Of a stretch of DNA of 64,000 nucleotides, positions 3,395 to 43,788 are shown in pieces; within the stretch, counting starts at the first letter, position 1; each line of letters starts with the position of its first letter. The DNA comes from Hordeum vulgare subsp. vulgare (taxonomy: Eukaryota > Streptophyta > Magnoliopsida > Poales > Poaceae), in the NCBI RefSeq assembly GCF_904849725.1, contig NC_058524.1:508756263-508820262 (forward strand). The letters run 5' to 3'. The notes below the pieces were generated by a model. The model was not told the DNA's origin. It saw nothing but the letters and a program-made list of their open reading frames with translations, and did no database searches. The translations under genes were made by a program, and so were the position numbers.

Positions 3395-3403
3395 CTGGTG
3401 CAG

Positions 3404-5054: not shown

Positions 5055-5055
5055 A

Positions 5056-5069
5056 GCATCCCTAAGCTT
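5056..5069 (-). other. Polypurine tract of element C
   Basis: Minus strand AAGCTTAGGGATGC directly beside the 3' LTR, the expected place for plus-strand priming. The same motif recurs twice inside the element (6979-6992 and 7034-7047). Confidence 0.65.
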
Positions 5070-11678: not shown

Positions 11679-12000
11679 TGCAGCCCCCAGACTAGCTCTT
11701 CGTCTCAGTATTTTTCAAAAATTCCAGAAAAAATCATACTTGATTTTCAGGACGTTCGGAGAACTTCTATTTTCGGGGTACTTTTCTACGGTATTCTAAA
11801 AGCATAAAACTGGGAAAACTAAACTAAATCTATCATTTTTCTTCTAAGCAACCGAAGGTGAAAGCTTGGAACAGAGGTTTGTGACTCCTCGATTCATCCA
11901 TCTCATGCTCATCGGAAGAAATTCGTCAATAAGGTTGCTCAAGTTTCCTTGACAAACCTTTTCGAATCGCAAAAGAGAACAGAGAATTTTCGAATAGTCA

Positions 12001-14859: not shown

Positions 14860-16277
14860 TGATAACCCACAAGTATAGGGATCGCAATAGTTCTCAAGGG
14901 TAGAGTATTAAACCCAAATTTATTGATTCGACTCAAGGGGAAGCCAAAGAACATTCTCAAGTATTAGCAGTTGAGTTGTCAATTCAACCACACCTGAAAG
15001 ACTTAGTATCTGCAGACAAGTATCAGTAGCAAGATAGTGTGATAGCAACAGTAGCAATAGTAACCAGTAGCAGCAGAGTAAGAGCAGTAGCAGCAGTGTA
15101 ACGGTAGCAGCAGTGACAGCAGTAGCAGCAAAGTAATGTAGCAAGGACCAGTAGTAAAAGACTCGTAGGCATTGGATCGGTGATGGATGATTATGTCGGA
15201 TGCTATTCATCATGCAACTGTTATAACACAGAGAGATATGTAACTAGCTCCAGTTCATCAATCTAATGTAGGCATGTATTCCGTATGTAGTCATACGTGC
15301 TTAGGGAAAAGAACTTGCATGACATCTATTGTCCATCCCTCCCGTGGCAGCGGGGTCCTAATGGAAACTACGGGATATTAAGGTTCTCCTTTTAATAAAG
15401 AACCGGACGAACGCATTAACACTTGGTGAATACATGAACTCCTCATACTATGGTCATCTCCGGGAGTGGTTCCGGCTATTGTCACTCCGGGGTTGCCGGG
15501 TCATAACACATAGTAGGTGAATACAACTTGCAAGATAGCATCTAAAACACACATATATTGGCGTCAACATAATAGGTTTAGATCTGAAATCGTGGGACTC
15601 GGGCCCTAGTGACAAGCATTAAGCATGGCAAAGTAGTAGCAACATCAATCTCAGAACATAGTGGATACTAAGGATCAATCCTCGTCAAAACTAACTCGAT
15701 TACATGATAGATCTCATCCAACTCATCACCGTCCAGCAAGCCTACAATGAGATTACTCATGAACGGTGAAGAGCATCATGGAATTGGCGATGAAGGAAGG
15801 TTGATGATGACGATGGCGACGATTTCCCCTCTCCGAAGCCCAAAACGGACTCCAGATCTGCCCTCAAAATGAAGAACAGGAGGTGGCGGCGCCTCCGTAT
15901 CATAAAACGCGATGAACTCTTCTCCTTGATTTTTTCCGGGCGTTACGGACTAAATAGAGCTGGATTTGGAGGCGCTGGAGCATCGTGGGCTCCACAAGCC
16001 TGCCAGGCGTGGCCAGGGGGGGCGCCTGGTGGGCTTGTGGGCTCACGGCTCCACTTCCTCCGCTGATTCTTGCGCCAGTATTTTTCATAAATTCCAAAAA
16101 AATTCTCCGTAAATATTCAGGTCATTCCAAGAACTTTTATTTCTGCACAAAAACAACACCATGGCAATTCTGCTGAAAACAGCGTTAGTCCGGGTTATTT
16201 CCATTCAAATCATGCAAATTAGAGTCCAAAACAAGGGCAAAAGAGTTCGGAAAAGTAGATACAACGGAGACGTATCA
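14860..16277 (-). repeat. 5' LTR of element D
   Basis: 1.4-kb LTR; on the minus strand it starts TGATACGTCTCCGTTGTATC and ends TACTTGTGGGTTATCA. A CAG-rich tract is at about 15040-15135. The U3 GC hairpin is at about 15990-16042. The LTR at 1-959 is the same family in reverse. The related B LTRs extend past the homologous U5 end by roughly 90 bases. Confidence 0.9.
15990..16042 (-). promoter_or_regulatory. U3 GC hairpin, D LTR
   Basis: Arms CCACAAGCCTGCCAGGCG and GCGCCTGGTGGGCTTGTGG around a G-rich loop, in the same place relative to the LTR start as in the other families. Confidence 0.7.
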
Positions 16278-17446: not shown

Positions 17447-18968
17447 TGATGACCCACAAGTATAGGGGATCAATCATAGTGCTTTCGATAAGTAAGAGTG
17501 TTGAACCCAACGAGGAGCAGAAGGATCTGACAAGTGGTTTTCCGCAAGGTAAAAACTGCACGCACTGAAATTGTCGGTAAGAAGTGATTGTGTGGTGAGA
17601 TGATTCGTAGCAAGCAACAAGTAACAAAAGTAGAAACGGTGCAGAAAGGTGTCCCAATCCCTTTTGTAGCAAGGCACAAGCCTGGACAAAGTCTTATAAG
17701 AGGAAAATGCTCCCGAGGACAGATGGGAATTTCTGTCATGCTAGTTTCATCATGTTCATATGATTCACGTTCGTTACTTTGATAGTTTGATATGTGGGTG
17801 GACCAGCGCTTGGGTACTGACCTTACTTGGACAAGCATCCCACTTATGTTTAACCCCTCTCGCAAGCATCCGCAACTACGAAATAAGAAGTAAGACAAAG
17901 TCTAACCATAGCATTAAACTAATGGATCCAAATCAGCCCCTTACGAAGTAACGCATAAACTAGGGTTTAAGCTTCTGTCACTCTAGCAACCCATCATCTA
18001 CTTACTACTTCCCAATTCCTTCCTCTAGGCCCAAATAATGGTGAAGTGTTATGTAGTCTACGTTCACATAACACCACTAGAGGAAAAACAACATACAACA
18101 TATGAAATTACCGAACGAATACCAAATTCACATGACTACTATTAGCATGACTTATCCCATGTCCTCAGGAACAAAAGTAACTACTCACAAAGCATAATCA
18201 TATTCACGATCAGAGAGGTAATGAGTAGCACCAAGGATCTGAACGTAAACTCTTCCACCAAATAATCCAAGTAGCATCAACTACAAAGAGCAATCAACAC
18301 TACTAGCAACCTTACAAGTACCAATCGGAGTCGCGAGACGGAGATTAGTTACAAGAGATGAACTAGGGTTTGGAGATGAGATGGTGCCGATGAAGATGTT
18401 GATGGTGATGAGTCCCCTCTGATGAGAGGAGTGTTGGCGATGACGATGGCGATGATTTCCCCCTCCGGGAGGGAAGTTTCCCCAGCAGGATCGTCCTGCC
18501 GGAGCTCTAGATTGAATCTGCTCAAGTTCCGCCTTGTGGCGGTGGCAAAACCACGAAAAATCTCCTCCTTGATTTTTTTCTTGGACGAAACCCTCCATAT
18601 AGCAAAAGAGGGGGCAGTGGGCTAGCAGGATGCCCACAAGACCCCATGGAGCGGCCTGGGGGGTTGGCCGCGCCGTGCAGGCTTGTGGCCACCCCCTGGC
18701 GCCTCTCTAGCGCTTCTTCAGCCCAGTAATTTTTATAAATTGGGAAAGAAATCCACGTAGATTTTCACGGCGTTTGGAGTTGCGCCGAATAGGTATCTCT
18801 ACTTTCCTCCACTTTCAGGCCAGAATTCCAGTCACCGGTATTCTCCCTCTTCATGTAAACCTTGCAAAATAAGAGAGAAAAGGCATAAGAATAGTACCGT
18901 GAAGTGAAATAACAGCCAAAGAAGCGATAAATATCAACATGAAAACATGATGCAAAATGGACGTATCA
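17447..18968 (-). repeat. 3' LTR of element P
   Basis: On the minus strand starts TGATACGTCCATTTTGCATC and ends ACTTGTGGGTCATCA. It pairs with 42269-43788. The U3 GC hairpin lies at 18632-18690. Confidence 0.92.
18632..18690 (-). promoter_or_regulatory. U3 GC hairpin, P 3' LTR
   Basis: Outer arms CCCACAAG / CTTGTGG with inner GCGGCC against GGCCGC; more decayed than the copy in P's 5' LTR (43456-43513). Confidence 0.55.
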
Positions 18969-18982: not shown

Positions 18983-19031
18983 AGACATCGCTTGTCCTCA
19001 AGCGAAAGCCTAGCTCAATAAATACGTCCAC

Positions 19032-20686
19032 TGCTACTGCAACAAAAGACCTTCGAGCGGCGCCAGAAACAAGCGTGCTGACGGGAGACTATTCTTGTCT
19101 CGATTCTCCTTAGCAACGGCACCAGGAATCCTTCTGCTATGGCTACACCTTTAGGGACTTCCTAGGCAAATATGCAAAGGATTCCCCTGTGGCCTTGGAG
19201 CCTTGCGTTGGTGTTCCCTCGAAGCGGAAAGGGTGCTGTAGCACAGCAATGGTAAGTATTTCCCTCAGTTTTGAGAACCAAGGTATCGATCCAGTGAAGG
19301 AGTATCACAAGTGCCTGCACAAACACAAAGAGCTTGCTCCCAACGCTATGAAGGGGTTGTCAATCCCTTATAGATTGTTTGCCAAGTTAGAACTGAAAGC
19401 AACAAAGTAACAAAGCAAAGTAAAAGCGAAAGTGGAAACGATATGTGTGAATAGACGCGGGGGCCATAGTGTTCACTAGTGGCTTCTCTCATGAAAGCAA
19501 GTAGACGGTGGGTGAACGAATTACTGTCGAGCAATTGATAGAACCGTGCAAAGTCGTGACGATATCTATGGCAATGATTATATATATAGGCATCACATCC
19601 AAAACAAGTAGACCAATACTTTCTGCATCTACTACTATTACTGTACACGTCGACCGCTATCCCGCATGCATCTAGTGTATTAAGTCCAAAAGAACAGACT
19701 AACGCCTTAAGCAAGATGACATGATGTAGATGGACAATGTCATATCTATGACAAAGCCCATCTTGTTGCCCTTGATGGAAACTACACAATGTGTGCCTTG
19801 CTGCCCCTACTGTCACTGGGAAAGGTCACCACACGGTAAGAACGCAATACCAAGCACTTCTCCCATTGCAAGAATCATAGATCTAGTTGGCCAAACAAAA
19901 CCCAAGACTCGGAGAGACTTACAAGGATATCAAATCATGCATATAAGAAATCAGCAAAGACTCAAATATATATCATAGATAATCTGATCACAAATCCACA
20001 ATTCATCAGATCTCGACAAACACACCGCCAAAGAGAATTACATCGGATAGATCTCCATGAAGATCATGGAGAACTTTGTATTGAAGATCCAAGAGAGAGA
20101 AGAAGCCATCTAGCTACTAACTACGGACCCGTAGGTCTGAAGTGAACTACTCACGAGTCATTGGAGGGGCGATGATATTGATGAAGAAGCCCTCCAACTC
20201 CAAAGTCCCCTCCGGCAGGGCACCGGGAAGGGTCTCCAGATGAGATCTCGCAGAAACGGAAGCTTGCGGTGGCGGGAAAGTGTTTTCGTGGACGCCTTGG
20301 ATTTTTCTGGATTTTTCGGGAATTTATAGGCCAAAGACCTAGGGCAGGGGGGCGCCAGGGAGGCCACAAGCTTGGTTGCCGCGGCCTCCCCTCTGACCGC
20401 GGCAACAGGGCTTGTGGGCACCCTATGGGCCCACTTGCTTGGCCCTCAATTCTCCATATCTTCTTCCATTCTGGAAAAAATCATCTTGGGGATTTTATTC
20501 TGTTTGGACTCCCTTCCAAAATCAGATCTGAAAAGAGTCAAAAACACAGAAAAACAGGAACTCGCACTTGGCACTGAGTTAATAAGTTAGTCCCAAAAAA
20601 GATATAAAAGGTAAACAAAACATCCAAAGTTGACAAGATAACAGCGTGAAACCATCAAAAGTTATAGATACGTTTGCGACGTATCA
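19032..20686 (-). repeat. Solo LTR of the C family in element P
   Basis: 1655-bp LTR homologous to both C LTRs, flanked by a perfect TCCAC repeat (19027-19031 and 20687-20691). The P sequence on both sides joins exactly as in Q around 25190 (GTCCACATGTTTAGG). No interior remains, so it is best explained by recombination between two LTRs. It keeps the U3 hairpin (20363-20419), the TATAAAT box (20322-20328) and a primer-site relic near 19051-19066. Confidence 0.93.
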
Positions 20687-20691
20687 TCCAC

Positions 20692-23604: not shown

Positions 23605-25135
23605 TGATGACCCACAAGTATAGGGGATCAATCATAGTCCATTCGATAAGTAAGAGTGTCGAACCCAACGAGGAGCAGAAGGCTCTGATTAACGGTTTTT
23701 AGCAAGGTAATAACTGCAAGCACTGAAAGTAGCGGTAACAAATGATGGTGTAGTGAGGTGAAACGTAGCAGGTGGAAAGTAACAAGTAACAAGTAATAGC
23801 AACGGTGCAGCAAAGTGTCCCAATCCCTTTTATAGCAAGGGACAAGCCTGAACAAAGTCTTATAGGGGGGAAATGCTCCCGAGGACACACGGGAATTTCT
23901 GTCATGCTAGCTTTCATCATGTTCATATGATTCGCGTTCGTTACTTTGATAGTTTGACATGTGGGTGGACCGGCTCCTGGGTACTACCCTTACTTAGAAA
24001 AGCATCCCACTTATGATTAACCCCTCTCGCAAGCATCCGCAACTACGAAAGAAGAATTAAGACAACGTCTAACCATAGCATTAAACTAGTGGATCCAAAT
24101 CAGCCCCTTACGAAGCAACGCATAGACTGGGGTTTAAGCTTCTGTCACTCTAGCAACCCATCATCTACTTACTACTCCCCAATGCCTTCCTCTAGGCCCA
24201 AATATGGTGAAGTTTTATGTAGTCGACATTCACATAACACCACTAGAGGAAAAACAACATACAACATATCAAAATACCGATCGAATACCAAATTCACATG
24301 ACTATTATTAGCATGACTTATCCCATGTCCTCAGGAACAAAAGTAACTACTCACAAAGCATAATCATAATCATGATCAGAGGTGTAATGAGTAGAATCAA
24401 GGATCTGAACATAAACTCTTCCACCAAGTAAACCAACTAGCATCAACTACAAAGAGTAATCAACACTACTAGCAACCTTACAAGTACCAATCGGAGTCGC
24501 GAGACGGAGATTGGTTACAAGTGATGAACTAGGGTTTGGAGATGAGATGGTGCTGATGAAGATATTGATGGAGATGAGTCCCCTCCGATGAGGGGAGTGT
24601 TGGTGATGACGATGGTGACGATTTCCCCCTCTGGGAGGGAAGTTTCCCGAGCAGGATCGTCCTGCCGGAGCTCTAGATTGGTTCTGCTCAAGTTCCGCCT
24701 CGTGGCGGCGGCGCCTCCTCGAAAAAGCTCCGCTCTGATTTTTTTTCCGAACGAAACCCTTCATATAGCAGAAGAGGGGGGCCAGTGGGCCACCAGGGTG
24801 CCCACAAGCCCTGTAGCCGCGGCCAGGGGGGCAGGCCACGGCTACCAGGCTTGTGGGCCCCTGGCAGCTCCCCTCTGGCACTTCATTCACCCAGTATTTT
24901 TTATAAATTCCCAAAAACTTCCATGTTGATTTTCAGGGCATTTGGAGTTGCGCAGAATAGAGGACTCAGACTTGCTCCTTTCCCAGTCCAGAATTCCAGC
25001 TGCCGGTATTCTCCCTCTTCAAATAAACCTTGCAAAATAAGAGAGAAAAGGCATAAGTATGGTACCACAAAGTATAATAAGAGTTTATAAAGCGATAAAT
25101 ATCAACATGAAAGCATGATGCAAAATGACGTATCA
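23605..25135 (-). repeat. 3' LTR of element Q
   Basis: Pairs with 36600-38127. It carries the U3 hairpin at 24800-24858 and a TATATGA box at 24762-24768 (minus strand), 31 bp beyond the hairpin in transcription direction. Confidence 0.93.
24800..24858 (-). promoter_or_regulatory. U3 GC hairpin, Q 3' LTR
   Basis: Arms of 25 nt (24800-24824 and 24834-24858) match at 22 of 25 positions by eye, with GCCCACAAGCC outside and TAGCCGCGGCC / GGCCACGGCTA inside, loop AGGGGGGCA. Confidence 0.8.
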
Positions 25136-25149
25136 ACTCCCCCAAGCTT
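25136..25149 (-). other. Polypurine tract of element Q
   Basis: Minus strand AAGCTTGGGGGAGT directly beside the 3' LTR. Confidence 0.8.
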
Positions 25150-26620
25150 AAACCTCGCTTGTCCTCAAGCAAAAAACCAAGATCCATAAACATGTCCACA
25201 TGTTTAGGGATGAAGGTTTCGATAAAACATAATACGGACATGAGGGCATCATGATCACACATAGAACAACAATACATCATAAAGATTCTTATGGGAAAGT
25301 AACAATTCCTTCACAAAGCAAAGTATGAATCAAAAACCTTACCGAGAAGTAGCCAACAATGGTCCATAGTCATTGAAGCAATTGCAATTTGTCATAACAT
25401 CAGAAAGAGTCAAATAAGAGCTTGTAAAGCAAATCCACATACTCAATCATCTCTTTTGTTTTCCACAATTGTTACAACTCATGTGGTACTCATGGTATCA
25501 AAGTTTCAGTTGGACACAAAGAAAGATAGGGTCTTATAATTTTGCCTCCCAACCATTTACCTCAAGGGTAAAGTCAACAATAATAAAGCATAAGTACTCA
25601 TCTCCAAGTTGATATATGAATATAAATCTTTCCCTAGCATATGACGTTCAGCAAGATGAAGACGGAATAGGGAATTGGTGTTGATCACCATGACTTTCAC
25701 AAGGACAAAAGTAAAGGTACAGGATAGGCCCTTCGCAGAGGGAAGCAGAGGTTGTCATGCGCTTTTATGGTTTGGATATACGACCTCTTAGTGTAAAGGA
25801 ACGTAACTTTATATTGCCCCGTGTGATAAAGAACTTTATTATGCAGTCTGTCTCTTTTATGTCTTCCTCATCACAGGTTCGTACAATGCTTATTTTCCAA
25901 ACACTAATAAATCATACATACTTTAGATAGCAACTTTTTATTGCTTGCACCGATGACAACTTACTTGAAGGATCTTACGCAATCCATAGGTAGGTATGGT
26001 GGACTCTCATGGCAAAACTGGGTTGAAGGTTTATGGATGCACAAGTAGTATTTCTACTTAGTACGGAAGTTTTGGCTAATATGAGGTGGAAGCAATCATC
26101 ACATGCTAAGGTATCTCTAGACATATAACATTGTTTGGAACCAAGCAAACACAATTCATTATGTTGTCTTCCTTGTCCAACATCTACTTCTAAGCATGTA
26201 ATAGTTTGGTGAGTGCTCACAATTATAGAAAGTGTCTAAGATGATATATTTATATGTGAAACTCTCTTTCCTTATTACTTCTTATTAATTGCAACAATGA
26301 CTGGGGTCTATGTTGGTCTATTCTCAACAAGTTTCAATCATCATACTTGTTATATGTGAAGCTATCACTTTCCATAAGATCATCTCATGATCTTTCATGC
26401 TATCATTCTTTTCATACTTTTGATCACGGCACAAAACAAAGCCCTTGACTAAGATACTCTTTATTATATAGCTCGCAAGCTCGAATACATAGGGGGAGAC
26501 ACAAGGCAAAAGACTCAAACTAAACACTAAAGACTTATCCCACTAGAAAAAGAGAAAACTGAAAAGGAAAACTAAAAACAAAGGTAAAGGCAAAAGATGT
26601 GATGGTGATACGATACCGGG
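25150..26620 (-). other. 3' non-coding region of element Q
   Basis: No gene seen; parallels 18983-22100 of P without the solo LTR. The conserved block with CCCTTCGCAGAGGG is at 25727-25747. Confidence 0.75.
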
Positions 26621-26658
26621 GCAACTCCCCCAAGCTTGGCACAAGCCAAGGGAGTTGC
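26621..26658 (-). other. Internal polypurine tract within a hairpin (Q)
   Basis: Minus strand AAGCTTGGGGGAGT at 26624-26637. GCAACTCCC and GGGAGTTGC flank a central AAGCTTGGC...GCCAAG, giving a near-palindrome directly after the accessory ORF stop. Confidence 0.6.
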
Positions 26659-26670
26659 CCATACCAATGC

Positions 26671-27082
26671 TCAGTTGTCTTCCTTTGGTGGTGGCGGAGG
26701 AGTTGTTGCAGAGGTCTTGAGCTTGTCTAATTTCCACTTGAGCATGAAATTCTGCTCTCTCAGATCATCATTTTCCTCCTCAAGCTTCAACACCCTTTGA
26801 CAAGGTTCCTTCTTACTCTCCTGCAAGAAACGAGAAGGGATAAACAAGTTCTTATGCTTCTTCCTTGAGTCAGGGAGGCTCGACTTCTTGAACTCCACAT
26901 GAGTGCGTCCAGGTTGAGGTAGAGGAGCCTCCTCTTCATCGGAACTCGTTTGTTCCTTCCCCTTGGGATCATAGTCCTCTTCCTCATCAGTGGTCCAGCC
27001 ATATGGTTCCAAGTCCCCATAGACCTTGGGGTTAGCAAAGTAATCAGCCACATAGCTCTCCCCCTCTAAATCCTCAGAAGAC
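26671..27082 (-). CDS. Env-position accessory ORF of element Q, unknown function, leucine-zipper-like tail
   Basis: A 137-codon frame starting MSSEDLEGESYVADYFANP, collinear with the P copy. Acidic centre (DEEEDYDPKG, SSDEEEAP), basic patch (SRKKHK), then LEEENDDLREQNFMLKWKLD, which continues KL: leucines fall at positions 0, 7, 14 and 21, as in a leucine zipper of three heptads. It ends PPPPPKEDN. No membrane segment. It may dimerise or bind nucleic acid or Gag, but that is inference. The ATG was chosen because the frame opens there in both copies and a TATA-like site lies about 90 bp upstream. Confidence 0.62.
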
Positions 27083-27167
27083 ATCTTGACCAGATCTGCG
27101 GCAGAAAACATGCTCGAAACGAAAAACAGAGGAAAACTACATGATACGGAGATCAAAACCATCGGGC

Positions 27168-27298
27168 GTATATATAATGATTTTTTGTGGACCAGAAGGA
27201 GTGCTCCGCAAGAAAACGGAGTCCGGGAGGCACACGAGGTGCCCACAAGCCCTGTAGCCGCGGCTAGGGGGGAGGTCGCGGCTACCAAGCTTGTGGCC
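27168..27298 (-). promoter_or_regulatory. Candidate internal promoter of Q: GC hairpin plus TATA
   Basis: Hairpin 27241-27298 with GCCCACAAGC outside and TAGCCGCGGC / GTCGCGGCTA inside. TATATATA at 27169-27176 lies about 65 bp further in transcription direction and about 90 bp before the ORF ATG at 27082. The same arrangement is at 22655-22788 in P. Confidence 0.52.
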
Positions 27299-27368
27299 GC
27301 CTCGTGCGCTCTCCGGAGTGCTTTTTATTTTTTTATTTTTCCATAAATTCCAAAACGGAGAAAATTTC

Positions 27369-28229
27369 CTACTGGAAAAGTTTTGGAGTCCAATTACTTA
27401 TTGAAACACATACCTCTTCGTTTTCAGAGTCTGAAACAGGCTCATAAACATCCCTTATGTACTCCTCTGGAGTTATGCTATTGATGATATTGCTCTCAAC
27501 ATTTATGGGAGTACTAGAGATATATTGCTTGATTCTTTGCCCATTTACCACTCTAGGAAAATTACCTTCCGTGTTATTGATTTTGATGGCACCGGAACGA
27601 TATACTTCCTCGACAACGTAGGGACCTTCCCATTTAGAGAGAAGCTTGCATGCGAAGAATCTTAAGCGAGAATTGTATAGCAGGACATAATCACCTACAT
27701 TGAACTCACGTTTCTGTATTCTTTCATCGTGCCATCTATTAACCTTTTCCTTGAACAACTTGGCATTCTCATATGCCTGGGCCCTCCATTCATCTAATGA
27801 GCTGATATCAAACAACAGCTTCTCACCGGCAAGTTTGAAATCGAAGTTGAGCTCTTTGATTGCCCAATAAGCTTTGTGTTCTAGCTCAAGAGGTAAATGA
27901 CAGGCCTTACCGTAAACCATTTTATACGGCGACATGCCCATGGGATTCTTATAAGCAGTCCTATAAGTCCATAGTAAATCATCAAGTTTGCTAGACCAAT
28001 TCTTTTGAGATCTATTGACAGTCTTTTGTAAGATCAATTTGATCTCCCTATTACTCAACTCCACTTGATCACTAGACTGAGGATGATAAGGAGATGCAAC
28101 TCTATGGTTGACATAATACTTAGCGAGCATCTTGCGGAAAACACCATGAATGAAGTGTGAACCGCCATCAGTCATCAGATATCTAGGGACTCCAAATCTT
28201 GGTAAAATGACTTCTTTAAGAATCTTAAT
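27369..28229 (-). pseudogene. Element Q integrase C-terminal half
   Basis: Frame from the insertion of the inverted-LTR unit to the stop at 27369. It starts with [19 protein letters not shown], containing the second catalytic Asp, then [19 protein letters not shown] with the catalytic Glu, [20 protein letters not shown], and the C-terminal VGDYVLLYNSRLR and KWEGPYVVEEVY. This half has no internal stop. The integrase is split by 4.3 kb of foreign DNA, so the element is dead. Confidence 0.87.
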
Positions 28230-29037
28230 TGTAACATCCCAAATTTTGGAATGTTAATATAATTATTAGATTGATTGTTTGTTTGTTTGAGTGAAATTTG
28301 AAACTTTTCAAAAACTTTTGAATGAGAGGGAATAAAATGACTTTCCCCTTCTCCGGTGAATTCAAATTCATCCATTTAAAATCAATGAGAGAAGATGACA
28401 TGACTTCTTCAACTATAAAGAATTTGAATGGAGCTCGCATTTGAATTTCTTTCGGTTTTGATTTGCAATTCTATTCTTCTTTTCTCCACTCAAGAAATGC
28501 CGAGAAATATATTCTATCAAACAAAAAAGAGAGGAGGAATATGACCCTCCAAAACTAGGGGCATATTTGAAATATTTTGAGCCAAGAAAACCAAAATTTA
28601 TATTGAGTAAATAATTGCAAAAAGAAATAAAGCTTTTAGGGATTTTCTGAAAAAACATTTTTTTAAAGTTTTTATTTTGGTCGTGGGATAATGCCCATCA
28701 TTTAGATTTTATTTTTCTGATAATTTAATATATAAAAACTATTTATTCCAAATTTATTTGGTTTCCTTTTTAATCATTTACTTTCCGGGTTTTGAAAATA
28801 GAAAAGAAATCTCTATTAAATGGAAATAGAGTTGTCCCATTAAGACACTTTCCAAAATTAGGCCCAACCGACATCATCTCCTACCTCTCGTCTCCTTCCT
28901 CATGTTACAAAAGCTTTCCATATCCATGGAGACAGGAACCTCCACCTTCCCGATCTCCCTCGTCCTTCCATCCCGGCGCCTCCCGAGGCCACCTATAAAA
29001 CCCCCTCCCTCTCCTCGTTCCATTTTTTCCATCACCG
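28230..29037 (+). repeat. Left inverted arm (U3 of LTR, plus orientation)
   Basis: About 808 bp matching the reverse complement of 31741-32564, with scattered substitutions and lacking about 15 bp present in the right arm. It contains a TATAAAA box at 28994-29000. The match stops at CCATCACCG. Confidence 0.9.
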
Positions 29038-29967
29038 CGTCCTCTCCCTGCCCGTAGCCTCCTCGCCACCATCTTCCCCTTCCTGTCAAGAACACCACCA
29101 GGAGCTCTCCTGGATCGCCCTTGCCGAGGTCCTCCAGCGCCCAGGCACTCCCCACCACCTCCTATCCATCCCGCTCCACCCCCCACATCGCCTCCACCCC
29201 TCACCTCGTCGCCCCCTTGGCCCTGCAGGACCACCTCGCCGGCCGTCTACACGAAGTAGGAGCCACCAGGAGCCCGCGTCTCCACCTCGACCGGAGCTCC
29301 CCAAGCGTCGACCTCCCCAAGTGCCGAACCTCCCCTCCTCCGCCATCCCCACCCCCGCCGGCGACCACCCCCCACGCCGGAGCTGCTCACCCCGCCGGCC
29401 ACCTCGCCGGAGGAAACCTCCCTGACAGCCACGTGAGAAACCTCTCTGACCTCTCTGTTGTGATTTTTTTGTTGGTTACCGTTACATCTTGATCCTAAGG
29501 CCCCTAATAGATCACTTAATAGACGAACCGTTTTCTTCTAATGTGCAGGCGTTTGTTAGTTTACACCGCAGCGCACTCGTCTAAGCCAACCAGAGATCGC
29601 CACGTGGCCCCATTCAATATTTAGATTTTAGTTTTCTATTTCCGAAACAGAACCAGTTCAATTTTGTTTCCCTTATATCTTTTAATCTAGGAGTCCAATG
29701 AGGTTGATTCTTTTTCCAGTAGATCACAATTTTTCTGTAGTTTTCGAAAACATATTATTTGCCTATGTTTGAAATTTCAAAATTTGAATTAAATCAGATT
29801 TAGTTTAAATCTTGTTTTGCTTATTCCAGGAGTTTAAAAATAGCTTTTAATTTGATTCTTTTTGCTGATGCTTCCTAGTGATCATATATTTCTGTAGTTT
29901 AAGTTTCAATTTTTTAAATATTGTTACTTGGGGTTTTACCAAAAACAGGTTCTGTTTTGATTAGGTG
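29038..29967 (+). other. Unique part of left arm: GC-rich then AT-rich leader-like sequence
   Basis: Begins about 40 bp after the TATA box. 29038-29440 is very GC-rich with CCGCCGGCGACC-like motifs; 29450-29967 is AT-rich with long T runs. There is a possible splice donor (ACGTGAGAAA, 29430) and acceptor (TGTGCAGG, about 29543). Proline-rich and glycine-rich open frames here lack recognisable domains. It may be the normal R-U5 of the LTR, deleted in the right arm, or an acquired sequence. Confidence 0.5.
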
Positions 29968-29985
29968 AAGTGAATTTTTTCACTT
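29968..29985. other. Perfect hairpin at the junction of the two arms
   Basis: AAGTGAA, four T, TTCACTT. It marks where plus-oriented leader sequence meets the minus-oriented gag; the gag stop codon (29980-29982) lies inside it. Confidence 0.75.
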
Positions 29986-31119
29986 TATGCAATCATTAGC
30001 AAACTGTCCTGCTTCCTTGCAACGAAAGCAAATGAGTTCTGACAAGTCTCGAGACGTCTTAGTGATTTCTTTTGCTCCTTGGGTTTCTGGCTTCCTTCCT
30101 GAGCACATGTATTTGTGGTGGCAAAATTCCATACACTTGTAACATCTGACATGACTCAGGTCTTTATCTGCAGAGATTTGGCTCTTCCGAGGGTACTTTT
30201 TCTTCTTTCCGGACTCCTTTATTTTGGCCAGTTCTTTTATTTCAAGTGGATCAAACTCCACTTTTTCCGTCGGGAAAATTCCCAGATACTCTTGGCTTCC
30301 CTTCGTGTAATCCTCTGAATAATGTCCTTCTTCTCCACATGAGTAACATGCATTGGAGAAAAATCTGGTTAGGCCTTGTCCATCAGGGTCTCCAATATTT
30401 TCCTTCATCACAAGTTTTTCTAAAATCTTCTTCGTGAGTGTTTCCTCCATTGCTTCTTTCTGTTGCTTGACAACTTGTTGCACCTTGGGGTAAATGTGAC
30501 ATTGAGCTGGGTAGTGGGTGGTTCCTCCACAAAGGAAACAAGTCACCTGACTACTTGGGCACTCCTCAGCTGGGTGATTTTCTTCATAATGAGTGCATCC
30601 ATCCTTGTGTTCTTCCTGGGTGTGTCCTATTTCTCCACAGATCTTGCATGCACAAGTCTTATCCTTCGGATTATCATAGCACTTCTGAATAAGTCGGGAT
30701 CTTAACAGAGTGTTCTTGAATTCGTCCCAAGTTTCTGCTCCACTAAATCCTTGTATGGCATGGTGCATTTTCCACCAGATAGCAGCACTTTGGGTAATGT
30801 ACTGGAGAGCGTGTGCCACTTCATATTTCCTTGAGATCAAGTTGCTCCCGAAGTGGTCCTCCATGTTCTGAATCCATATTTTAGCCTCCAGCTGGGTCAT
30901 AGGTCCAGAGACTACAAGTCCAGCTTCATACTCCATCTGGTAGGGTTGAGGTTTTGGGGATGAGACGGGTAAGAGAGGGAGGGAGATACACACAATACAA
31001 ACAATATTTTTGAGAATAGGTTTTATTTGTGGCCGTCGGAAAACACACACCAATGACGGCTCACAAATCATCGTATCTAACGTGGGTATATAAAAGGGGT
31101 TTGGACTTCTAATGGTCAT
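29980..31119 (-). pseudogene. Truncated gag with multiple zinc knuckles
   Basis: An open frame of 379 codons; an alternative ATG at 30934-30936 (MEYEAGLVVSGPM) may be the real start because the residues before it look like leader. A gag capsid-like part (LEAKIWIQNMEDHFG, AAIWWKMHHAIQGF, about 30700-30900) is followed by several CCHC-type knuckles: CKICGEIGHTQEEH, CFLCGGTTHYPAQC, CYSCGEEGHYSEDY (last Cys replaced), CYKCMEFCHHKYMC and CFRCKEAGQFANDC (His replaced by Gln). These would bind RNA during packaging. The frame stops right after the last knuckle, inside the junction hairpin, with no protease or pol. Probably Gypsy, from the primer-site type and gag style. Confidence 0.75.
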
Positions 31120-31416
31120 ATTATTATTCGAACACTTCAGGGTCTTCTAGTTCTTCGGGTCTTGAGAGTCTTGTGTTGGTGTAGCTTAAATTCTTCAAAC
31201 GCGTGGTGAAATCCTCTTTACTTTGAAGTAGAACTCCGTTGATTCGTCATGAGGTCAAAGGGGTAAGGGGATTGTATAACTATTTGAGGTGAGAGAGAAT
31301 ATTTGATGAAATCAGAAGAGATGAGAAGTGAAAGGTGTTCTCGAAAATAAGACTTTTGAGAGATCCTATCCTAAGAAGATTCCAGTTTCAAGGGTCACGT
31401 CCTACAGTCAACATGT

Positions 31417-31428
31417 GCTCTGAAACCA
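31417..31428 (-). other. Primer-binding site, initiator tRNA-Met type
   Basis: Minus strand TGGTTTCAGAGC, one base from the common TGGTATCAGAGC, four bases inside the LTR end. It shows that the right LTR is a 5' LTR in minus orientation and a different lineage from the tRNA-Asp-primed elements around it. Confidence 0.75.
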
Positions 31429-31432
31429 TATC

Positions 31433-32564
31433 TGTAGCGACCCGACTCAAAACGAGTCAAGCCTCTGTGTTTCTGTGCCATCCCTGCATCAGTATGCTGG
31501 CACACACAGTACATCAATGTATATATCAAAGTGCAATCATATGTAAATAGCGTAAAACTGATATATATACCTTAAAATTTCAGCGGAAGCAGTCAAGGGA
31601 GTGGAGTCCCAAATAACACCAACGGCAGGTTGAGTGCGGACCGTAACCCTGAATCGTACACTTACTCGTCGAAGAAAGTATCTACAACATAAGACGTTGC
31701 AGCCGTGTAGGTCAGCATATTGAAGATAATAATTTATAGGCGGTGATGGGAAAAATAGAACGAGGAGAGGGAGGGGGTTTTATAGGCGGCCTCGGGAGGC
31801 GCCGGGATGGAAGGACGAGGGAGATCGGGGAGGTGGAGGTTCCTGTCTCCATGGATATGGAAAGCTTTTGTAACGTCAAGAAGGAGACGAGAGGTAGGAG
31901 ATGATGTCGGTTGGGCCTAATTTTGGAAAGTGTCTTAATGGGCCAGCTATATTTCCATTTAATAGAGATTTCTTTTCTATTTTCAAAAACCGGAAAGTAA
32001 ACGATTAAAAAGGAAACCAAATAAATTCGGAATAAATAGTTTTTATATACTAAAATTATCAGAAAAATAAAATCTAAATGATGGGCATTATTCCACGGCC
32101 AAAATAAAAACTTAAAAAATGTTTTTTTTCAGAAAATCCCTAAAAGCTTTATTTCTTTTTGCAATTATTTACTCAATATAAATTTTGGTTTTCTTGGCTC
32201 AAAATATTTCAAAAATGCCCCTAGTTTTGGAGGGTCATATTCCTCCTCTCTTTTTTGTTTGACAGAATATATTTCTCGGCATTTCTTGAGTGGAGAAAAG
32301 AAGAATAGAATTGCGAATCAAAACCGAAAGAAATTCAAATGCCAGCTCCATTCAAATTATTTATAGTTGAAGAAGTCATGTCATCTTCTCTCATTGATTT
32401 TAAATGGATGAATTTTAATTCACCGGAGAAGGGGAAAGTCATTTTATTCCCTCTCATTCAAAAGTTTTTGAAAAGTTTCAAATTTCACTCAAGTTTCAAT
32501 CACTCAAACAAACAAACAATCAATCTAATAATTATATTAACATTCCAAAATTTGGGATGTTACA
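31433..32564 (-). repeat. Right LTR of the inverted-LTR unit (5' LTR, minus orientation)
   Basis: 1132 bp, from TGTAACATCCC at its outer end to GGGTCGCTACA at the inner end, beside the primer-binding site. A TATAAAA box lies at 31778-31784. Its outer 824 bp match the left arm. Confidence 0.88.
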
Positions 32565-35500
32565 TTAATAGATGTGTGGTGATCAACATTTCTAGTGGGG
32601 ATAGCTTCTACCCACTTAGTGACGTAATCAACATCAACTAAGATGGGAGTATACCCATTGGAACTCGGGAAGGGTCCCATATAATCAAAGCCCCAGACAT
32701 CAAATGGTTCAATGACAAGTGAATAGTTCATAGGCATTTCCTGACGTTTACTGATGTTCCCTATTCTTTGGCATTCGTCACAAGACAAGACAAACTTATG
32801 GGCATCCTTGAAGAGAGTGGGCCAATAGAAACCTGATTGCAATACCTTATGAGCAGATCTATCTCCAGCATGGTGTCCTCCGTAGGCTTCGGAATGACAC
32901 TTCTGCAGGATCTGTCCCTGTTCATGTTCAGGCACACAACGTCTAATAACACCATCTACTCCTTCCTTATAAATGTGAGAATCATCCCAAAAGTAGTGTC
33001 TCAAATCAAAGAATTTCTTCTTTTGGTGGTAGGTGAAACTAGGTGGTATGTATTTGGCTACGATTTAGTTTGCGTAATCAGCATACCACGATGCACTATG
33101 TGAAGTGCGGATGACATTCATTTGCTCATCGGGAAAGTTGTCATCTATAGGTCGTGGGTCATCAAGGACATTCTCTAGCCTGGACAAGTTATCTGCTACA
33201 GGGTTATCAGCACCCTTTCGGTCAACAACGTGCAAATCAAATTCCTGTAGCAGGAGAACCCATCTGATTAGCCTAGGCTTGGCGTCCTTCTTCTCCATAA
33301 GGTACTTAATAGCAGCATGATCAGAGTGAATAATGACTTTGGAGTCAACTATATAAGATCTGAACTTTTCACATGCAAACACGACTGCTAAAAATTCCTT
33401 CTCTGTAGTGGCATAGTTTCTTTGGGCACTGTCTAGAGTTTTACTAGCGTAGTGAATGACATTCAACTTCTTGTCAACTCTTTGTCCTAGAAAAACACCA
33501 ACAGCATAATCACTAGCATCGCACATGATTTCAAAGGGCAAGTTGCAATCAGGTGGTTGAACAATAGGTGCGGTTATCAAGGCTTTCTTAAGTATTTCGA
33601 AAGCTTCCTCACAATCCTCATCAAAAACAAAAGGAACATCCTTCTGCAAGAGGTTGGTAAGAGGCCTAGAAATCTTAGAGAAGTCTTTAATGAACCTTTT
33701 ATAGAAACCAGCATGACCTAGGAAACTTCGTATACCTCTAATATCTGTGGGGCAAGGCATTTTCTCAATTGCATCAACCTTAGCCTTATCAACTTCAATG
33801 CCTTTCTCAAAGATTTTGTGTCCTAAGACGATGCCTTCATTAAACATGAAGTGGCACTTCTCCCAGTTCAAGACGAGGTTGGTATCTTTGCATCTCTGTA
33901 AGACTCGATCAAGGTTGCTGAGGCAATCGTCAAAGGAAGAACCGTAAATGAAGAAATCATCCATGAAAACCTCAACAATCTTTTCACAAAAGTCGGAGAA
34001 TATAGCCATCATACATCTTTGAAAGGTGGCAAGTGCATTGCATAAGCCAAAAGGCATACGTCTATAAGCAAAGGTACCTAAGGGCCATGTGAAAGTGGTT
34101 TTCTCCTGAACAGATTGTGCAACAGGTATTTGCAAGAAACCTGAATAACCGTCTAGAAAGCAGAAGTGTGTGTGTTTAGATAGCCTTTCTAGCATTTGGT
34201 CGATAAATGGCAAAGGATAATGGTCTTTCCTGATTGCCTTGTTCAGTTTCCGGAAGTCTATCACCATCCTATAGCTAGTAATAATCCTCTGTGGGATTAG
34301 TTCATTCTTATCATTAGGAACGACGGTGATACCCCCCTTCTTAGGTACGCGATGTACTGGACTTACCCAATCACTATGAGCAATAGGATAAATGATTCCT
34401 GCTTCCAGAAGCTTTAACATTTCTTTTCTCACGGCCTCTTTCATCCTAGGATTGAACCTCCGTTGATGATCAGCGATTAGCTTAGAATCAGGATCAGTTT
34501 TAATCTTGTGCTGACATAGAGTGGGACTAATACCCTTAAGATCATCAAGAGTATATCCAATAGCAGCACGGTGCTTCCTCAAAGTTTTTAATAACTTCTT
34601 CTCTTCGTTATTCGAGAGGTGAGCACTAATAATAACAGGATATATCTCCTTCTCATCAAGATAGGCATACTTAAGTGTACCTGGTAACTGTTTTAGCTCG
34701 AACACAGGATCACCCTTTGGTGGGGGAGGATCCCCAAGCAGTTCAACAAGCAGATTATTCTTAAGAATAGGATATTGTTCTAAAACAATTTTATCTATCT
34801 CATCTCTTTCATCCATATGCATATCATTTTCATGCTCAAGCAGATATTGCTCTAAAGGATCCGTAGGAGGCACGGCAATATAGGCAAGAGCAATGATTTC
34901 ATCCCTACGAGACGACTCTTTTTCATGGGGTTGTCTTCCAAACTTGGAGAAGTTAAATTCATGAGACACACCCTCGAAACTAACAGTGACAGTCTGTTTA
35001 ATGCAATTAATATGAGCATTGACAGTGTTGAGAAAGGGTCTACCTAATATGATGGGACAAAAGCTATCGTGCGCAGTAGCAAGGACGAGGAAATCAGTAG
35101 GATACTTCGTCTTACCACACAAGACTTCTACATCTCTCACAATTCCCACAGGGCAGATAGTGTCCAGATAGTGTCTCTATTAGCTAGCATAATAGTGACA
35201 TCAATGGGTTCTAACTCAGCAGGTGCAATCTCATCTTTGATTTCATCATATAGGGACCGGGGTATTGCACTAACACTAGCACGCATATCACATAAACCAT
35301 GATAACAGTGATCTCCTATCTTGACAGAAACAACGGGCAGGCCAACTACAGGTCTGTATTTGTCTTTCGCGTGAGGTTTAGCAATTCTAGCGGAGTCCTC
35401 ACAGAATTTGATAACATGGTCGTCTATGTCTTCGGCTAAGAGATCTTTGATAATAGCAACACTAGGTTCAACTCTCATTTCCTCAGGGGGTGCAAGTGGT

Positions 35501-36493
35501 CTAATGTAACCCCTACGTATCACAGTTGGAGCTTTAGAATAATCCTTTTTCTTAGCAGGGTAAGGTGGTTTCTCAGTGTAGGCACAAGGAACAATAGGAT
35601 CATTATAGGCAATGACTTTCTCTTCAACTAGATTGGGTTTAACTATGTTGACATCTACAGGAGGATGATACTTAAACCACTTCTCTTTGGGAAGATCAAT
35701 TTGAGCAGCAAAAGATTCACATAGAGAAGCTACTATCTGAGAGTAAAGTCCATACTTAGCGCTAAAATCTCTAGAAGTGTTTGTTTCAACAAAAGATTTA
35801 ACGCAATCAAACTGGAAATTCATACCTGACTCCTTACCTTCTTCAAGCTCCCAATCTTCAGAGTTACATTTGATTCTTTCCAATAAATTCCACTAGTGGT
35901 CAATATCCTTCTTCATAAAAGAACCGGTACAAGAAGTGTCAAGCATGGTACGATCTTCATGAGAAAGCAGAGCATAAAAGTTTTGAGTGATAATTTCTCT
36001 CGAGAGCTCATGATTGGGGAATGAATATAGCATTGATTTAAGCCTCCCCCTAGCTTGAGCTATGCTTTCCCTGTCACAAGACCAAAAGTTATAAATATAA
36101 TTCCGATCACGATGTACTAAATGCATAGGATAAAACTTTTGATGAAATTCCAATTTCAACCGATTGTAGTCCCATGATCCAGTATCAGCACATAGCCTAT
36201 ACCATGTAAACGCCTTATCCTTCAAAGATAAAGGAAATACTTTCTTCTTTACCTCATCCTTGGGCAAACCTGCAAGCTTAAATAAACCACAGACTTCATC
36301 TACATAGATTAGATGCAAGTCTGGATGTGATGATCCATCTCCTGTAAAAGGATTAGCCAGCAGTTTCTCAAGCATACCCGAAGGAATTTCATAAAAGATA
36401 TTTTCAGTGGTACTTAGGTTGAGGAGCAACTCCTCATGCTTCCATTCGTGGTGAAGATACCCCGAACAAATTCCTCAAAGGAACAGTTTCCAT
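32565..36493 (-). pseudogene. Element Q gag-protease-RT-RNase H-integrase N-terminal half
   Basis: ATG at 36491-36493. Gag (LSLKDKAFTWYRLC, MHLVHRDRNYIYNFW) is followed by a protease with CDMRASVSAIP near 35281, where the usual Gly of the active-site motif is Arg. Reverse transcriptase shows [36 protein letters not shown] and FMDD at 33956-33967; RNase H has [11 protein letters not shown] and [13 protein letters not shown]; the integrase zinc region and first Asp (FDYMGPFP) precede the 28230-32564 insertion. Breaks: TGA at 36434-36436 and a nearby frameshift, TAG at 35893-35895, an 11-bp tandem duplication at 35154-35175 and TAA at 33065-33067. Domain order protease-RT-RH-integrase is typical Gypsy. 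Confidence 0.9.
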
Positions 36494-36571
36494 AGTGACA
36501 AGTGACAATAAATTTCAGCACAGTATATAAATGTTTCCTTACCAAATTCCACTTACCAAAGGCACATCCCT

Positions 36572-36588
36572 CCCCGGCAACGGCGCCA
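36572..36588 (-). other. Primer-binding site of element Q (tRNA-Asp)
   Basis: Minus strand TGGCGCCGTTGCCGGGG, 11 bases inside the 5' LTR. Confidence 0.9.
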
Positions 36589-36599
36589 GAAAAGAGTCT

Positions 36600-38127
36600 T
36601 GATGACCCACAAGTATAGGGGATCAATCGTAGTCCTTTCGATAAGTAAGTGTGTCGAACCCAACGACGAGCAGAAGGCTCTGATAAACGGTTTTTAGCAA
36701 GGTAATAACTGCAAGCACTCAAAGTAGCGGTAACAAGTGATGGTGTAGTGAGGTGAAATGTAGCAGGTGGAAAGTAACAAGTAACAAGTAATAGCAACAG
36801 TGGAGCAAAGTGGCCCAATCCCTTTTGTAGCAAGGGACAAGCCTGAACAAAGTCTTATAGGGGAAAACGCTCCCGAGGACACACGGGAATTTCTGTCATG
36901 CTAGTTTTTATCATGTTCATATGATTCGCATTCGTTACTTTGATAGTTTTACATGTGGGTGGACCGGCGCTTGGGTACTGCCCTTACTTGGACAAGCGTC
37001 CCACTTATGATTAACCCCTCTCGCAAGCATCCGCAACTACGAAAGAAGAATTAAGACAATGTCTAACCATAGCATTAAACTAGTGGATCCAAATCAGCCC
37101 CTTATGAAGCAACGCATAGACTGGGGTTTAAGCTTCTGTCACTCTAGCAACCCATCATCTACTTACTACTACCCAATGCCTTCCTCTAGGCCCAAATATG
37201 GTGAAGTATTATGTAGTCGACGTTCACATAACACCACTAGAGGAAAAACAACATACAACATATCAAAATATCGAACGAATACCAAATTCACATGACTATT
37301 ATTAGTATGACTTATCCCATGTCCTCAGCAACAAAAGTAACTACTCACAAAGCATAATCATAATCATGATCAGAGGTGTAATGAGTAGCATCAAGGATCT
37401 GAACATAAACTCTTCCACCAAGTAATCCAACTAGCATCAACTACAAAGAGTAATCAACACTACTAGCAACCTTACAAGTACCAATCGAAGTCGCGAGACG
37501 GAGATTGGTTACAAGTGATGAACTAGGGTTTGGAGATGAGATAGTGCTGATGAAGATGTTGATGGAGACGAGTCCCCTCCGATGAAGGAGTGTTGGTGAT
37601 AACGATGGTGATGATTTCCACCTCCGGGAGGGAAGTTTCCCTGGCAGGATCGTCCTGCCGGAGCCCTAGATTGGTTCTGCTCAAGTTCCGCCTCGTGGCG
37701 GCGGCGCCTCCTTGAAAAAGCTCCGGTCTGATTTTTTTTCGGGTGAAACCCTTCATATAGCAGAAGAGGGGGGCAGTGGGCCACCAGGGTGCCCACAAGC
37801 CCTGTAGCCGCAGCCAGGGGGGCAGGCCGCGGCTACCAGGCTTGTGGGCCCCTGGCAGCTCCCCTCTGGCACTTCTTTCGCCCAGTATTTTTTATAAATT
37901 CCCAAAAAATTCCACGTTGATTTTCAGGGCATTTGGAGTTGCGCAGAATAGAGGACTCAGACTTGCTCCTTTCCCAGTCCAGAATTCCAGCTGCCGGTAT
38001 TCTCCCTCTTCAAATAAACCTTGCAAAATAAGAGAGAAAAGGCATAAGTATGGTACCACAAAGTATAATAACAGTCCATAAAGCGATAAATATCAACATG
38101 AAAGCATGATGCAAAATGGACGTATCA
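36600..38127 (-). repeat. 5' LTR of element Q
   Basis: Pairs with 23605-25135. The U3 hairpin is at 37791-37849, where GCCGCAGCC faces GGCCGCGGC. The right boundary meets the ACATC target repeat. Confidence 0.93.
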
Positions 38128-41100
38128 ACATCGTACTTAGCAAGCGTTTTACGAAAAGCACCATGAATGAAGTGTGTACCACCGTGGGTCATTAGATATC
38201 TAGGGACTCCAAATCTAGGGAAGATAACTTCTTTCAGCATCTTGATAGAGGTGTTGTGGTCAGCACTACTAGTGGGGATAGCTTCTACCCACGTAGTGAC
38301 ATAGTCAACAACAACTAAGATATGTGTATACCCGTTGGATTTTGGAAAAGGTCCCATATAATCAAAGCTCCAAACATCAAATGGTTCAATGACAAGTGAA
38401 TAGTTCATAGGCATTTCCTGAAGTTTGCTAATATTACCTATACTTTGACATTCGTCACAAGACAAGACAAACTTACGGGCATCCTTGAAGAGAGTGGGCC
38501 AATAGAAACCTGATTGCAATACCTTGTGTGCAGTTCTATCTCCAGCATGGTGTCCTCCGTAGGCCTCAGAGTGACACTTCTGTAGGATCTGTCCCTGTTC
38601 ATGTTCAGGTACACAACGTCTAATAACACCATCTACTCCTTCCTTATAAAGGTGAGGATCATCCCAAAAGTAATGTCTCAAGTCAAAGAAGAATTTCTTA
38701 TTTTGCTGGTACGTGAAACTAGGTGGTATGTATTTGGCAACGATATAGTTCGCATAATCCGCATACCACGGTGCACTACGTGAAGCATTTATGACATTCA
38801 TTTGCTCATCGGGAAAGCTATCACCAATAGGTTGTGGGTCATCAAGAACGTTCTCCAACCTAGACATGTTATCTGCTACTGGGTTATCAGCACCCTTCGT
38901 GTCGACAAATTGCAAATCAAATTCTTGTAGCAAGAGAACCCATCTGATAAGTCTAGGTTTAGCGTCCTTCTTCTCCATGAGGTACTTAATAGCAGCGTGA
39001 TCAGTGTGAATAGTAACTTTGGAATCAACTATGTAAGACCTGAACTTTTCACATGCAAACATGACTGCTAAAAATTCCTTCTCCGTAGTTGCATAGTTTC
39101 TTTGGGCACTGTCTAGAGTTTTACTAGCATAGTGAATAACATTCAACTTCTTGTCAACTCTTTGCTCTAGAACAACACCAACAGCATAATCACTAGCGTC
39201 ACACATGCTCTCAAAAGATAAGTTCCAATCAGGTGGTTGAACAATAGGTGTAGTTATCAAAGACCTCTTAAGTATTTCGAAGGCTTCCTCACAATCATCA
39301 TCAAAAACAAAAGGAATATCCTTTTGCAAGAGATTGGTAAGAGGCCTAGAAATCTTAGAGAAGTCTTTAATGAACTTTCTATAGAAACCAGCATGACCAA
39401 GGAAACTTCTTATTCCTCTGATATCTATGGGGTATGGCATTTTCTCGATTGCATCAACCTTAGCCATATCGACTTCAATACCTCTTTCAGAAATTTTATG
39501 TCCTAAGACGATGCCTTCATTGACCATAAAGTGGCACTTCTCCCAATTCAAGACAAGATTGGTATCTTTACATCTCTGCAAGACTCGATCAAGGTTTCTG
39601 AGGCAATCGTCAAAGGAAGACCCGTAAACGGAGAAGTCATCCATGAAAACCTCAACAATCTTTTCACAAAAGTCAGAGAATATAGCCATCATACGTCTTT
39701 GAAAGGTGGCAGGTGCATTACATAAGCCAAAAGGCATACGTCTATAAGCAAAGGTACCGAAAGGGCAGGTGAAAGTGGTCTTCTCCTGATCAGATTGTGC
39801 AACTGGTATTTGGGAGAAACCAGAATAACCGTCTAGAAAGCAGAAGTGTGTGTGTTTGGACAGCCTTTGTAGCATTTGGTCGATAAAAGGCAAAGGGTAA
39901 TCATCTTTCCTAGTGGCTTTATTCAATTTCCTAAAATCGATCACCATCCCATAGCCAGTGATAATCCTCTGTGGGATCAATTCATCCTTATCATTAGGGA
40001 CAACGGTAATGCCTCCCTTTTTAGGTACGCAATGCACCGGATTCACCCAATTGCTGTGAGTAATAGGATAAATGATACCCGCTTCCAGGACCTTTAGTAT
40101 TTCTTTGCTCACTACTTCTTTCATCTTAGGATTTAATCTCCTTTGATGATCAGCAACTGATTTGAAATCAGGATCCGTTTTAATCTTGTGCTGACATAGA
40201 GTAGGACTAATGCCCTTAAGGTCATCAAGAGTATATCCAATAGCAGCACAGTGCTTCCTCAGAGTTTTTAGTAACTTCTTTTCTTCATGCTCTGAGAGGC
40301 TAGCACTAATTATAACAGGATATATCTCTTTTTCATCAAGATAAGCATACTTAAGAGTATCAGGCAACTGTTTAAGCTCGAACACAGGATCACCCTTTGG
40401 TGGGGGTGGATCCCCAAGCAGTTCAACAGGCAAGTTATTCTTAAGGATAGGATATTGTTCTAAGACAACTCTCTCTATCTTATCCCTTTCATCCATATGC
40501 ATATCATTTTCATGCTCAAGAAAGTATTGCTCTAAGGGATCAGTAGGAGGCATGACAATAGAGGCTAAGGCAATAGTTTCATCCCTACTAAGCAACTCCT
40601 TTTCATGAGGTTGTCTATCGAACTTAGAGAAATTGAACTCATGTGACACGCCTTCGAAGCCAACAGTGACAGTTTGCTTTTCACAATCAATATGAGCATT
40701 GACGGTATTGAGGAAAGGTCTACCAAATATGGTCGGACAAAAGCTATCTTGTGCGGTAGCAAGAACAAGGAAATCAGCAGGATACTTCATTTTACCACAT
40801 AAGACTTCAACATCCCTAACAATTCCCACAGGGCAGATAGTATCTCTATTGGCAAGCTGAATAGTGACATCAATAGGCTCTATCTCAGCAGGTGCAATCT
40901 CATCTTTGATTTCATCATATAAGGATTGAGGTATTGCACTAACACTAGCACCCACGTCAATAATACATGATAACAATGATCTCTATCTTAACAGACACCA
41001 CAGGCATGCCAACGACAGGCCTATGTTTGTGTCTAACGTGAGGTTTAGCAATTCTAGCAGCATCTTCACAAAAGTGAATATTATGTCCCTCAACTTCTTC

Positions 41101-42257: not shown

Positions 42258-42268
42258 GAAAAGAGTCT

Positions 42269-43788
42269 TGATGACCCACAAGTATAGGGGATCAATCGTA
42301 GTCCTTTCAATAAGTAAGAGTGTCAAACCCAACGAGGAGCATAAGGATCTCACAAGTGGTTTTCAGCAAGGTAAAATCTGCAGGCACTGAAATTGTCGGT
42401 AACAAGTGATTGTGTGGTGAGATGATTCGTAGCAAGCAACAAGTAACAAAAGTAGCAACAGTGCAGAAAGGTGGCTCAATCCCTTTTGTATCAAGGGACA
42501 AGCCTGGACAAAGTCTTATAGGAGGAAAAACGCTCCCGAGGACACACGGAAATTTATGTCATGCTAGTTTCATCATGTTCATATGATTCGCATTCATTAC
42601 TTTGATAGTTTGACATGTGGGTGGACCAGCGCTTGGGTACTTCCCTTACTTTGGCAAGCATCCCACTTATGATTAACCCCTCTCGCAAGCATCCGCAACT
42701 ACGAAAGAAGAATTAAGACAAAGTGTAACCATAGCATTAAACTAGTGGATCCAAATCAGCCCCTTAAGAAGTAACGCATAAACTAGGGTTTAAGCTTCTG
42801 TCACTCTAGCAACCCATCATCTACTTACTACTTCCCAATGCCTTCCTCTAGGCCCAAATAATGGTGAAGTGTTATGTATTCGACGTTCACATAACACCAC
42901 TAGAGGAAAAACAACATACAACATATCAAATTACCGAGCGAATACCAAATTCACATGACTACTATTAGCATGACTTATCCCATGTCCTCGGGAACAAAAG
43001 TAACTACTCACAAAGCATAATCATATTCATGATCAGAGAGGTAATGAGTAGCATCAAGGATCTGAACATAAACTCTTCCACCAAATAATCCAACTAGCAT
43101 CAACTACAAAGAGTAATCAAGACTACTAGCAACCTTACAAGTACCAATCGGAGTTGCGAGACGGAGATTGGTTACAAGAGATGAACTAGGGTTTGGAGAT
43201 GAGATGGTGTTGATGAAGATGTTGATGGTGATGAGTCCCCTCTGATGAGAGGAGTGTTGGTGATGACGATGGCGACGATTTCCCCCTCCGGGAGGGAAGT
43301 TTCCCCGGCAGGATCGTCCTACCGGAGCCCTAGATTGGTTGTGCTCAAGTTCCACCTCGTGGCGGCGGCGAAACCACGAAAAAGCTGCTCCTTTATTTTT
43401 TTCCTGGACGAAACCCTCCATATAGCAAAATAGGGGGCCAGTGTGCCAGCAGGGAGCCCACGAGCCCCCATGGCGCGGCCTGGGGGTGGCCGCGCCTTGC
43501 AGGCTTGTGGCCACCCCCTGGCGCCCCTTTGGGCTTCTTCGGCCCAGTAATTTTTATAAATTGGGAAAAAATCCGCGTTGATTTTCACGGTGTTTGGAGT
43601 TGCGCAGAATACGTATCTCAACTTTGCTCCACTTTCAGGCCAGAATTCCAGTTGCCGATATTCTCCCTCTTCATGTAAACCTTGCAAAATAAGAGAGAAA
43701 AGGCATAAGAATAGTACTGTGAAGTAAAATAACTGCCAAAGAAGCGATAAATATCAACATGAAAACATGATGCAAAATGGACTTATCA
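42269..43788 (-). repeat. 5' LTR of element P
   Basis: Pairs with 17447-18968. On the minus strand it starts TGATAAGTCC rather than TGATACGTCC. The U3 hairpin is at 43456-43513 (GGCGCGGCC against GGCCGCGCC). Confidence 0.92.

Follow-up and report, generated by a model that had tools for sequence, protein, structure and literature searches.

A barley retroelement unit with U3 starts at both outer ends, inverted LTR arms and a perfect target duplication

Complex LTR-retrotransposon insertions in Triticeae have reportedly arisen by template switching, and the rearranged cDNA is said to integrate with a target duplication. The unit described here occupies positions 28230-32564 of the 64-kb stretch of DNA that we analysed (the window). 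It resembles those insertions in its proposed aberrant reverse transcription, in its rearranged cDNA and in its target duplication. The ordinary LTR retrotransposon with an initiator tRNA-Met primer-binding site (PBS) and a zinc-knuckle gag is also a close match: the unit likewise has one complete LTR, a PBS-like site, a gag-like open reading frame (ORF) and a 5-bp duplication. Unlike such an element, it has inverted arms, it has neither a second U5 end nor an internal junction of polypurine tract (PPT) and U3, and no pol domain was found by Pfam among its 21 ORFs of at least 70 aa. Among DNA transposons, those with long terminal inverted repeats, such as foldback and Mutator-like elements, likewise combine extended inverted arms with a target duplication. 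In contrast to those elements, the ends of the unit are the U3 starts of a retroelement, followed by an LTR, a PBS-like site and a gag-like ORF, and no transposase domain was found among the same 21 ORFs. Non-autonomous DNA transposons with terminal inverted repeats are also without a transposase. A search for relatives of the unit in viral contigs, genome contigs and plasmids confirmed none, and these are non-plant collections whose silence says little. In the scan of viral contigs, five stretches fitted a peptide pattern and none of them was confirmed.

Outer ends, target site and host elements

The unit has a U3 start at both extremities, each pointing inward. It opens with TGTAACATCCC at 28230 and closes with GGGATGTTACA at 32554-32564, which is the reverse complement of the start. 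Each terminal 11-mer occurs once on the plus strand of the window, and the exact 11-base U3 start is found nowhere else in it. When the unit was compared with the window by BLASTN, one inverted match stood far above chance besides the self-match, listed from both sides. It joins the left arm (28230-29038, plus strand) to the right arm (31740-32564) over 825 columns with 94.9% identity. The ungapped inverted segments of the arms are 65 nt at 100%, 440 nt at 97% and 315 nt at 96%. The alignment used for the K2P distance contains 22 substitutions and 4 gaps in 807 sites; the BLAST count for the same arms is 26 mismatches and 3 gaps in 830 columns. The sequence-only reading had described U3 starts at both outer ends, facing inward, with about 0.8 kb of inverted similarity, and both the BLASTN match and the direct comparison of the two ends bear this out.

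The left arm comprises the U3 start and U3, and its TATA box is at 28994. The counterpart of this box in the right U3 is located at 31779-31784 on the minus strand. The likeness of the arms ends at 29038/31740, ~40 bases beyond the TATA box, and the point of divergence (29039/31739) is near the expected transcription start. Close to the U3 start, 15 bases of the right arm, 32493-32507, have no equivalent at 28286/28287 in the left arm; these look like a local duplication in the right arm or a loss from the left arm. A search of 27900-33000 for repeat families of at least 20 nt (seed 11) returned inverted pairs only and no direct family; two LTRs in direct orientation were thus not found. Neither U3 start is internal, with a PPT directly on its 5' side; both adjoin the target. 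Because both U3 starts are outermost, the unit is without an ordinary internal PPT-LTR junction.

A perfect 5-bp duplication, TTAAT, adjoins both ends of the unit at 28225-28229 and 32565-32569. The unit lies in a host retrotransposon, H1 (23605-38127, minus strand), which it interrupts in the integrase. BLAST places the LTRs of H1 at 23605-25137 and 36600-38127. As read from the sequence, H1 is flanked by ACATC on both sides, and the BLAST match extends 2 bases further, to 38129. H1 is in turn held by a related outer host, H0, with LTRs at ~17447-18968 and 42268-43788 and with flanking 5-mers that agree at 4 of 5 bases, again as read from the sequence. The whole forms a three-level nest over ~17446-43788, in which H0 holds H1 and H1 holds the unit.

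H1 interrupts H0 ~115 bases away from the corresponding position in pol. The target is therefore present in H0 without interruption (38128-38577, minus strand), and both flanks of the unit match this copy by BLASTN. The left flank matches 38128-38246 up to position 28229, and the right flank matches 38242-38577 from position 32565. The two matches overlap by 5 bases, 38242-38246, where the duplication lies; in the paralog this 5-mer is TTGAT, with a single base changed relative to TTAAT. TTAAT and the empty paralogous site together show a short target site duplication within the 4-6 bp of LTR retrotransposons. The integrase of the host is in frame across the site: the right flank contributes 500 nt (2 mod 3) and the left flank is in codon phase 2 at 28224, a result of coordinate arithmetic in which the flanks were translated separately and left unjoined. 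By Pfam, the left integrase half matches rve with 22.2 bits, below the cut-off of 32.6, and the right half matches Integrase_H2C2 with 49.6 bits, over the cut-off. It had been claimed from the letters that TTAAT flanks the unit exactly and that the host integrase reads through the empty site. The exact flanks are confirmed at both positions and by the paralogous site, and the frame agrees by coordinates.

Internal sequences and divergence of the arms

Read on the minus strand from 32564, the right side of the unit contains an LTR, a PBS-like 12-mer, a leader and a gag-like ORF, in this order. The LTR is complete (31433-32564, 1,132 bp, TGTAACATCC...GGTCGCTACA), ending with GGTCGCTACA at 31433, and its part 31740-32564 is the right arm. 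The 12-mer at 31417-31428 on the minus strand agrees at 11 of 12 positions with what we take to be the initiator tRNA-Met PBS motif, and it is the sole site with at most one mismatch on either strand of the window. An LTR ending in TG...CA and followed by a PBS-like site is found on the right side only (31433-32564 and 31428-31417). The gag-like ORF (29980-31146, minus strand) is 388 aa long from stop to stop and is truncated at the inner junction; its stop codon ends at 29980, near the junction at ~29975. It matches Pfam zf-CCHC with an E value of 7.1e-4 and 20.0 bits, slightly below the cut-off of 20.8. Four knuckle-like motifs are recognized in it by pattern, and two of these deviate at the H or the last C. 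It is one of the 21 stop-to-stop ORFs of at least 70 aa inside the unit. The Pfam scan gave no match for the other 20 at E up to 0.01, and zf-CCHC for this one at E up to 1e-3. Rfam at gathering scores gave no match in 28000-32900.

The left inner sequence, 29039-29975 on the plus strand, is C-rich and then AT-rich. The C content is 51% in 29011-29430, and an AT-rich stretch extends beyond, to ~29975. This composition suggests that the sequence represents the R/U5 of a longer LTR type, in sense orientation on the plus strand. The ~0.94 kb was compared with the right U5 and with the gag/leader part, in both orientations each, and nothing above shuffles was found: 178, 190, 173 and 63 of 200 block shuffles scored as high in the four comparisons. 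Its ORFs of at least 70 aa have no Pfam match. Nothing corresponding to the left 0.94 kb was detected in the right LTR. The shorter R/U5 of the right LTR implies that the two templates were different or that one of them had a deletion, which could predate or follow integration. The inner junction is placed at ~29975, an approximate point. A 7-bp hairpin, AAGTGAA-TTTT-TTCACTT, spans the zone at 29968-29985. It is weak evidence of a strand switch, because 96 of the 2132 61-bp windows sampled contain a stem of at least 7 bp.

The K2P divergence of the arms is 0.0278 ± 0.0060 (22 substitutions in 807 sites), that of the H1 LTRs is 0.0411 ± 0.0053 (61 in 1529) and that of the H0 LTRs is 0.0661 ± 0.0068 (96 in 1519). 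Divergence thus falls in the order of nesting, from H0 through H1 to the arms of the unit. The arms differ significantly from the H0 LTRs (p 1e-4) and not from the H1 LTRs (Fisher p 0.13). Since the latter difference is not significant, the age is compatible with arms that came from different parents. The arms behave as an LTR pair that was identical at integration, and modest prior differences are possible. With 1.3e-8, the rate in common use for grasses, the arms would be ~1.1 My old. Substitutions are somewhat unevenly spread along the arms (KS p 0.044) and sparse toward the outer ends; the outermost 133 sites of the left arm have none.

Proposed origin and rival explanations

The plus-strand DNA of an LTR element starts at the U3 start, which is set by the polypurine primer. 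A DNA with a U3 start at both 5' ends therefore contains the beginnings of two plus strands, linked tail to tail. We consider it probable, with room for doubt, that the unit arose from two plus-strand 5' pieces of cDNA that were joined in this way and integrated through two U3 ends. One part would be a plus strand running U3-R-, ~1.75 kb in all, and the other a plus strand running U3-R-U5-PBS-gag. The joining could occur in one step if a growing plus strand switched to another plus strand as template. Alternatively, two incomplete cDNAs could be end-joined, also in one step. Either route would leave exact U3 starts at both outer ends with no additional assumption. The integrase of an LTR retrotransposon would then have used two U3 ends, and normal strand transfer would have produced the 5-bp duplication. 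The U3 and U5 ends have TGTA in common and are identical at 7 of the 10 outer bases (10 of 20), and this likeness makes it plausible that the integrase accepts two U3 ends. The proposal is also supported by the order of LTR, PBS-like site and gag-like ORF on the minus strand at the right and by divergences that follow the nesting, and the junction hairpin lends it weak support. Several points stand against it. Hairpins like that at the junction are not rare, the arms are not significantly less diverged than the H1 LTRs, and substitutions are somewhat unevenly spread along the arms. In addition, the arms differ in sequence beyond R, for which one template alone is an insufficient explanation.

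Three features lead us to favour the integration of a DNA that already had two U3 ends, as the sequence-only reading had suggested: the exact ends, the perfect 5-bp duplication and an arm divergence no greater than that of the H1 LTRs. The part of that reading that finds no support is the literal snap-back, in which one strand folds onto itself and copies its own 5' part. The inverted arms are of one type and the 7-bp hairpin lies at the junction, as a fold would have it. In its strict form, however, the product is palindromic up to the turn; the arms of the unit lie 2.7 kb apart, with unlike sequence between them, so that a later rearrangement would be required. The strict form was rejected as the main reading, as the strand past the junction is not its own complement and the centre is non-palindromic. 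We regard a snap-back origin as highly improbable; a strand switch or join that links two separate places gives a better fit.

Changes after insertion offer another route to inverted arms. The element could have been a normal minus-strand insertion whose left (3') LTR was later inverted in place through its TGTA/TACA ends by microhomology-mediated repair, with a deletion of U5, the PPT, pol and part of gag. Deletions are frequent in such elements. The U3 start agrees with the U5 end, read inward, in TGTA and in 7 of the outer 10 bases, so a break anywhere within 4 bases would suffice. The earlier argument that an inversion must break precisely at the edge of the element was too strict in this respect, since the break may fall anywhere in the shared 4-bp TGTA. 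Its judgement that the event is unlikely stands: at least two events are required, one of which must hit the 4 bases at the edge although several kb are available, and the outer ends and the duplication are intact. We find this history rather unlikely. An error of assembly would also give inverted arms, as long inverted repeats can mislead assemblers. However, 22 substitutions and 4 gaps distinguish the arms, the inner sequences are unlike, and a perfect duplication with an in-frame empty site is hardly the product of a misassembly. We give this explanation next to no credence.

The unit could also belong to a multi-copy family that moves in inverted form with LTR-derived inverted ends. Its long inverted ends and open gag-like ORF would suit such a family, which we nevertheless consider very unlikely. 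No further copy with the same ends or structure was found in the 64-kb window, and the RNA of such an element would end in antisense R/U3. As this RNA should fail in first-strand transfer, a single copy is expected, and the unit is probably a one-off accident. A bolder version, in which elements with two U3 ends are a recurrent product accepted by integrase and the unit comes from a lineage multiplied in inverted form, with gag between convergent U3 promoters, seems to us far-fetched.

Under the proposed joining of two plus-strand parts, a locus of this kind, in which an integrated unit has U3 at both ends and an exact duplication, would be evidence from nature for the ability of a retrotransposon integrase to join two U3 ends. 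It would also indicate that joined plus-strand parts give an integrable DNA. The inward-facing U3 promoters and the 0.8-kb inverted arms could yield hairpin or double-stranded RNA directed against the unit's own family.

Other repeats are present in the window. Three direct copies of ~1.66 kb, 94-95% alike, are located at 3398-5062, 10026-11686 and 19026-20690, with starts ~6.6 and 9 kb apart; they may represent the LTRs of an element that is tandem or nested. Another inverted pair, of 0.98 kb and 91% identity, is formed by 1-959 and 14860-15838. Segments of 1-959 have further inverted matches at 47086-47867 and 55443-56205.
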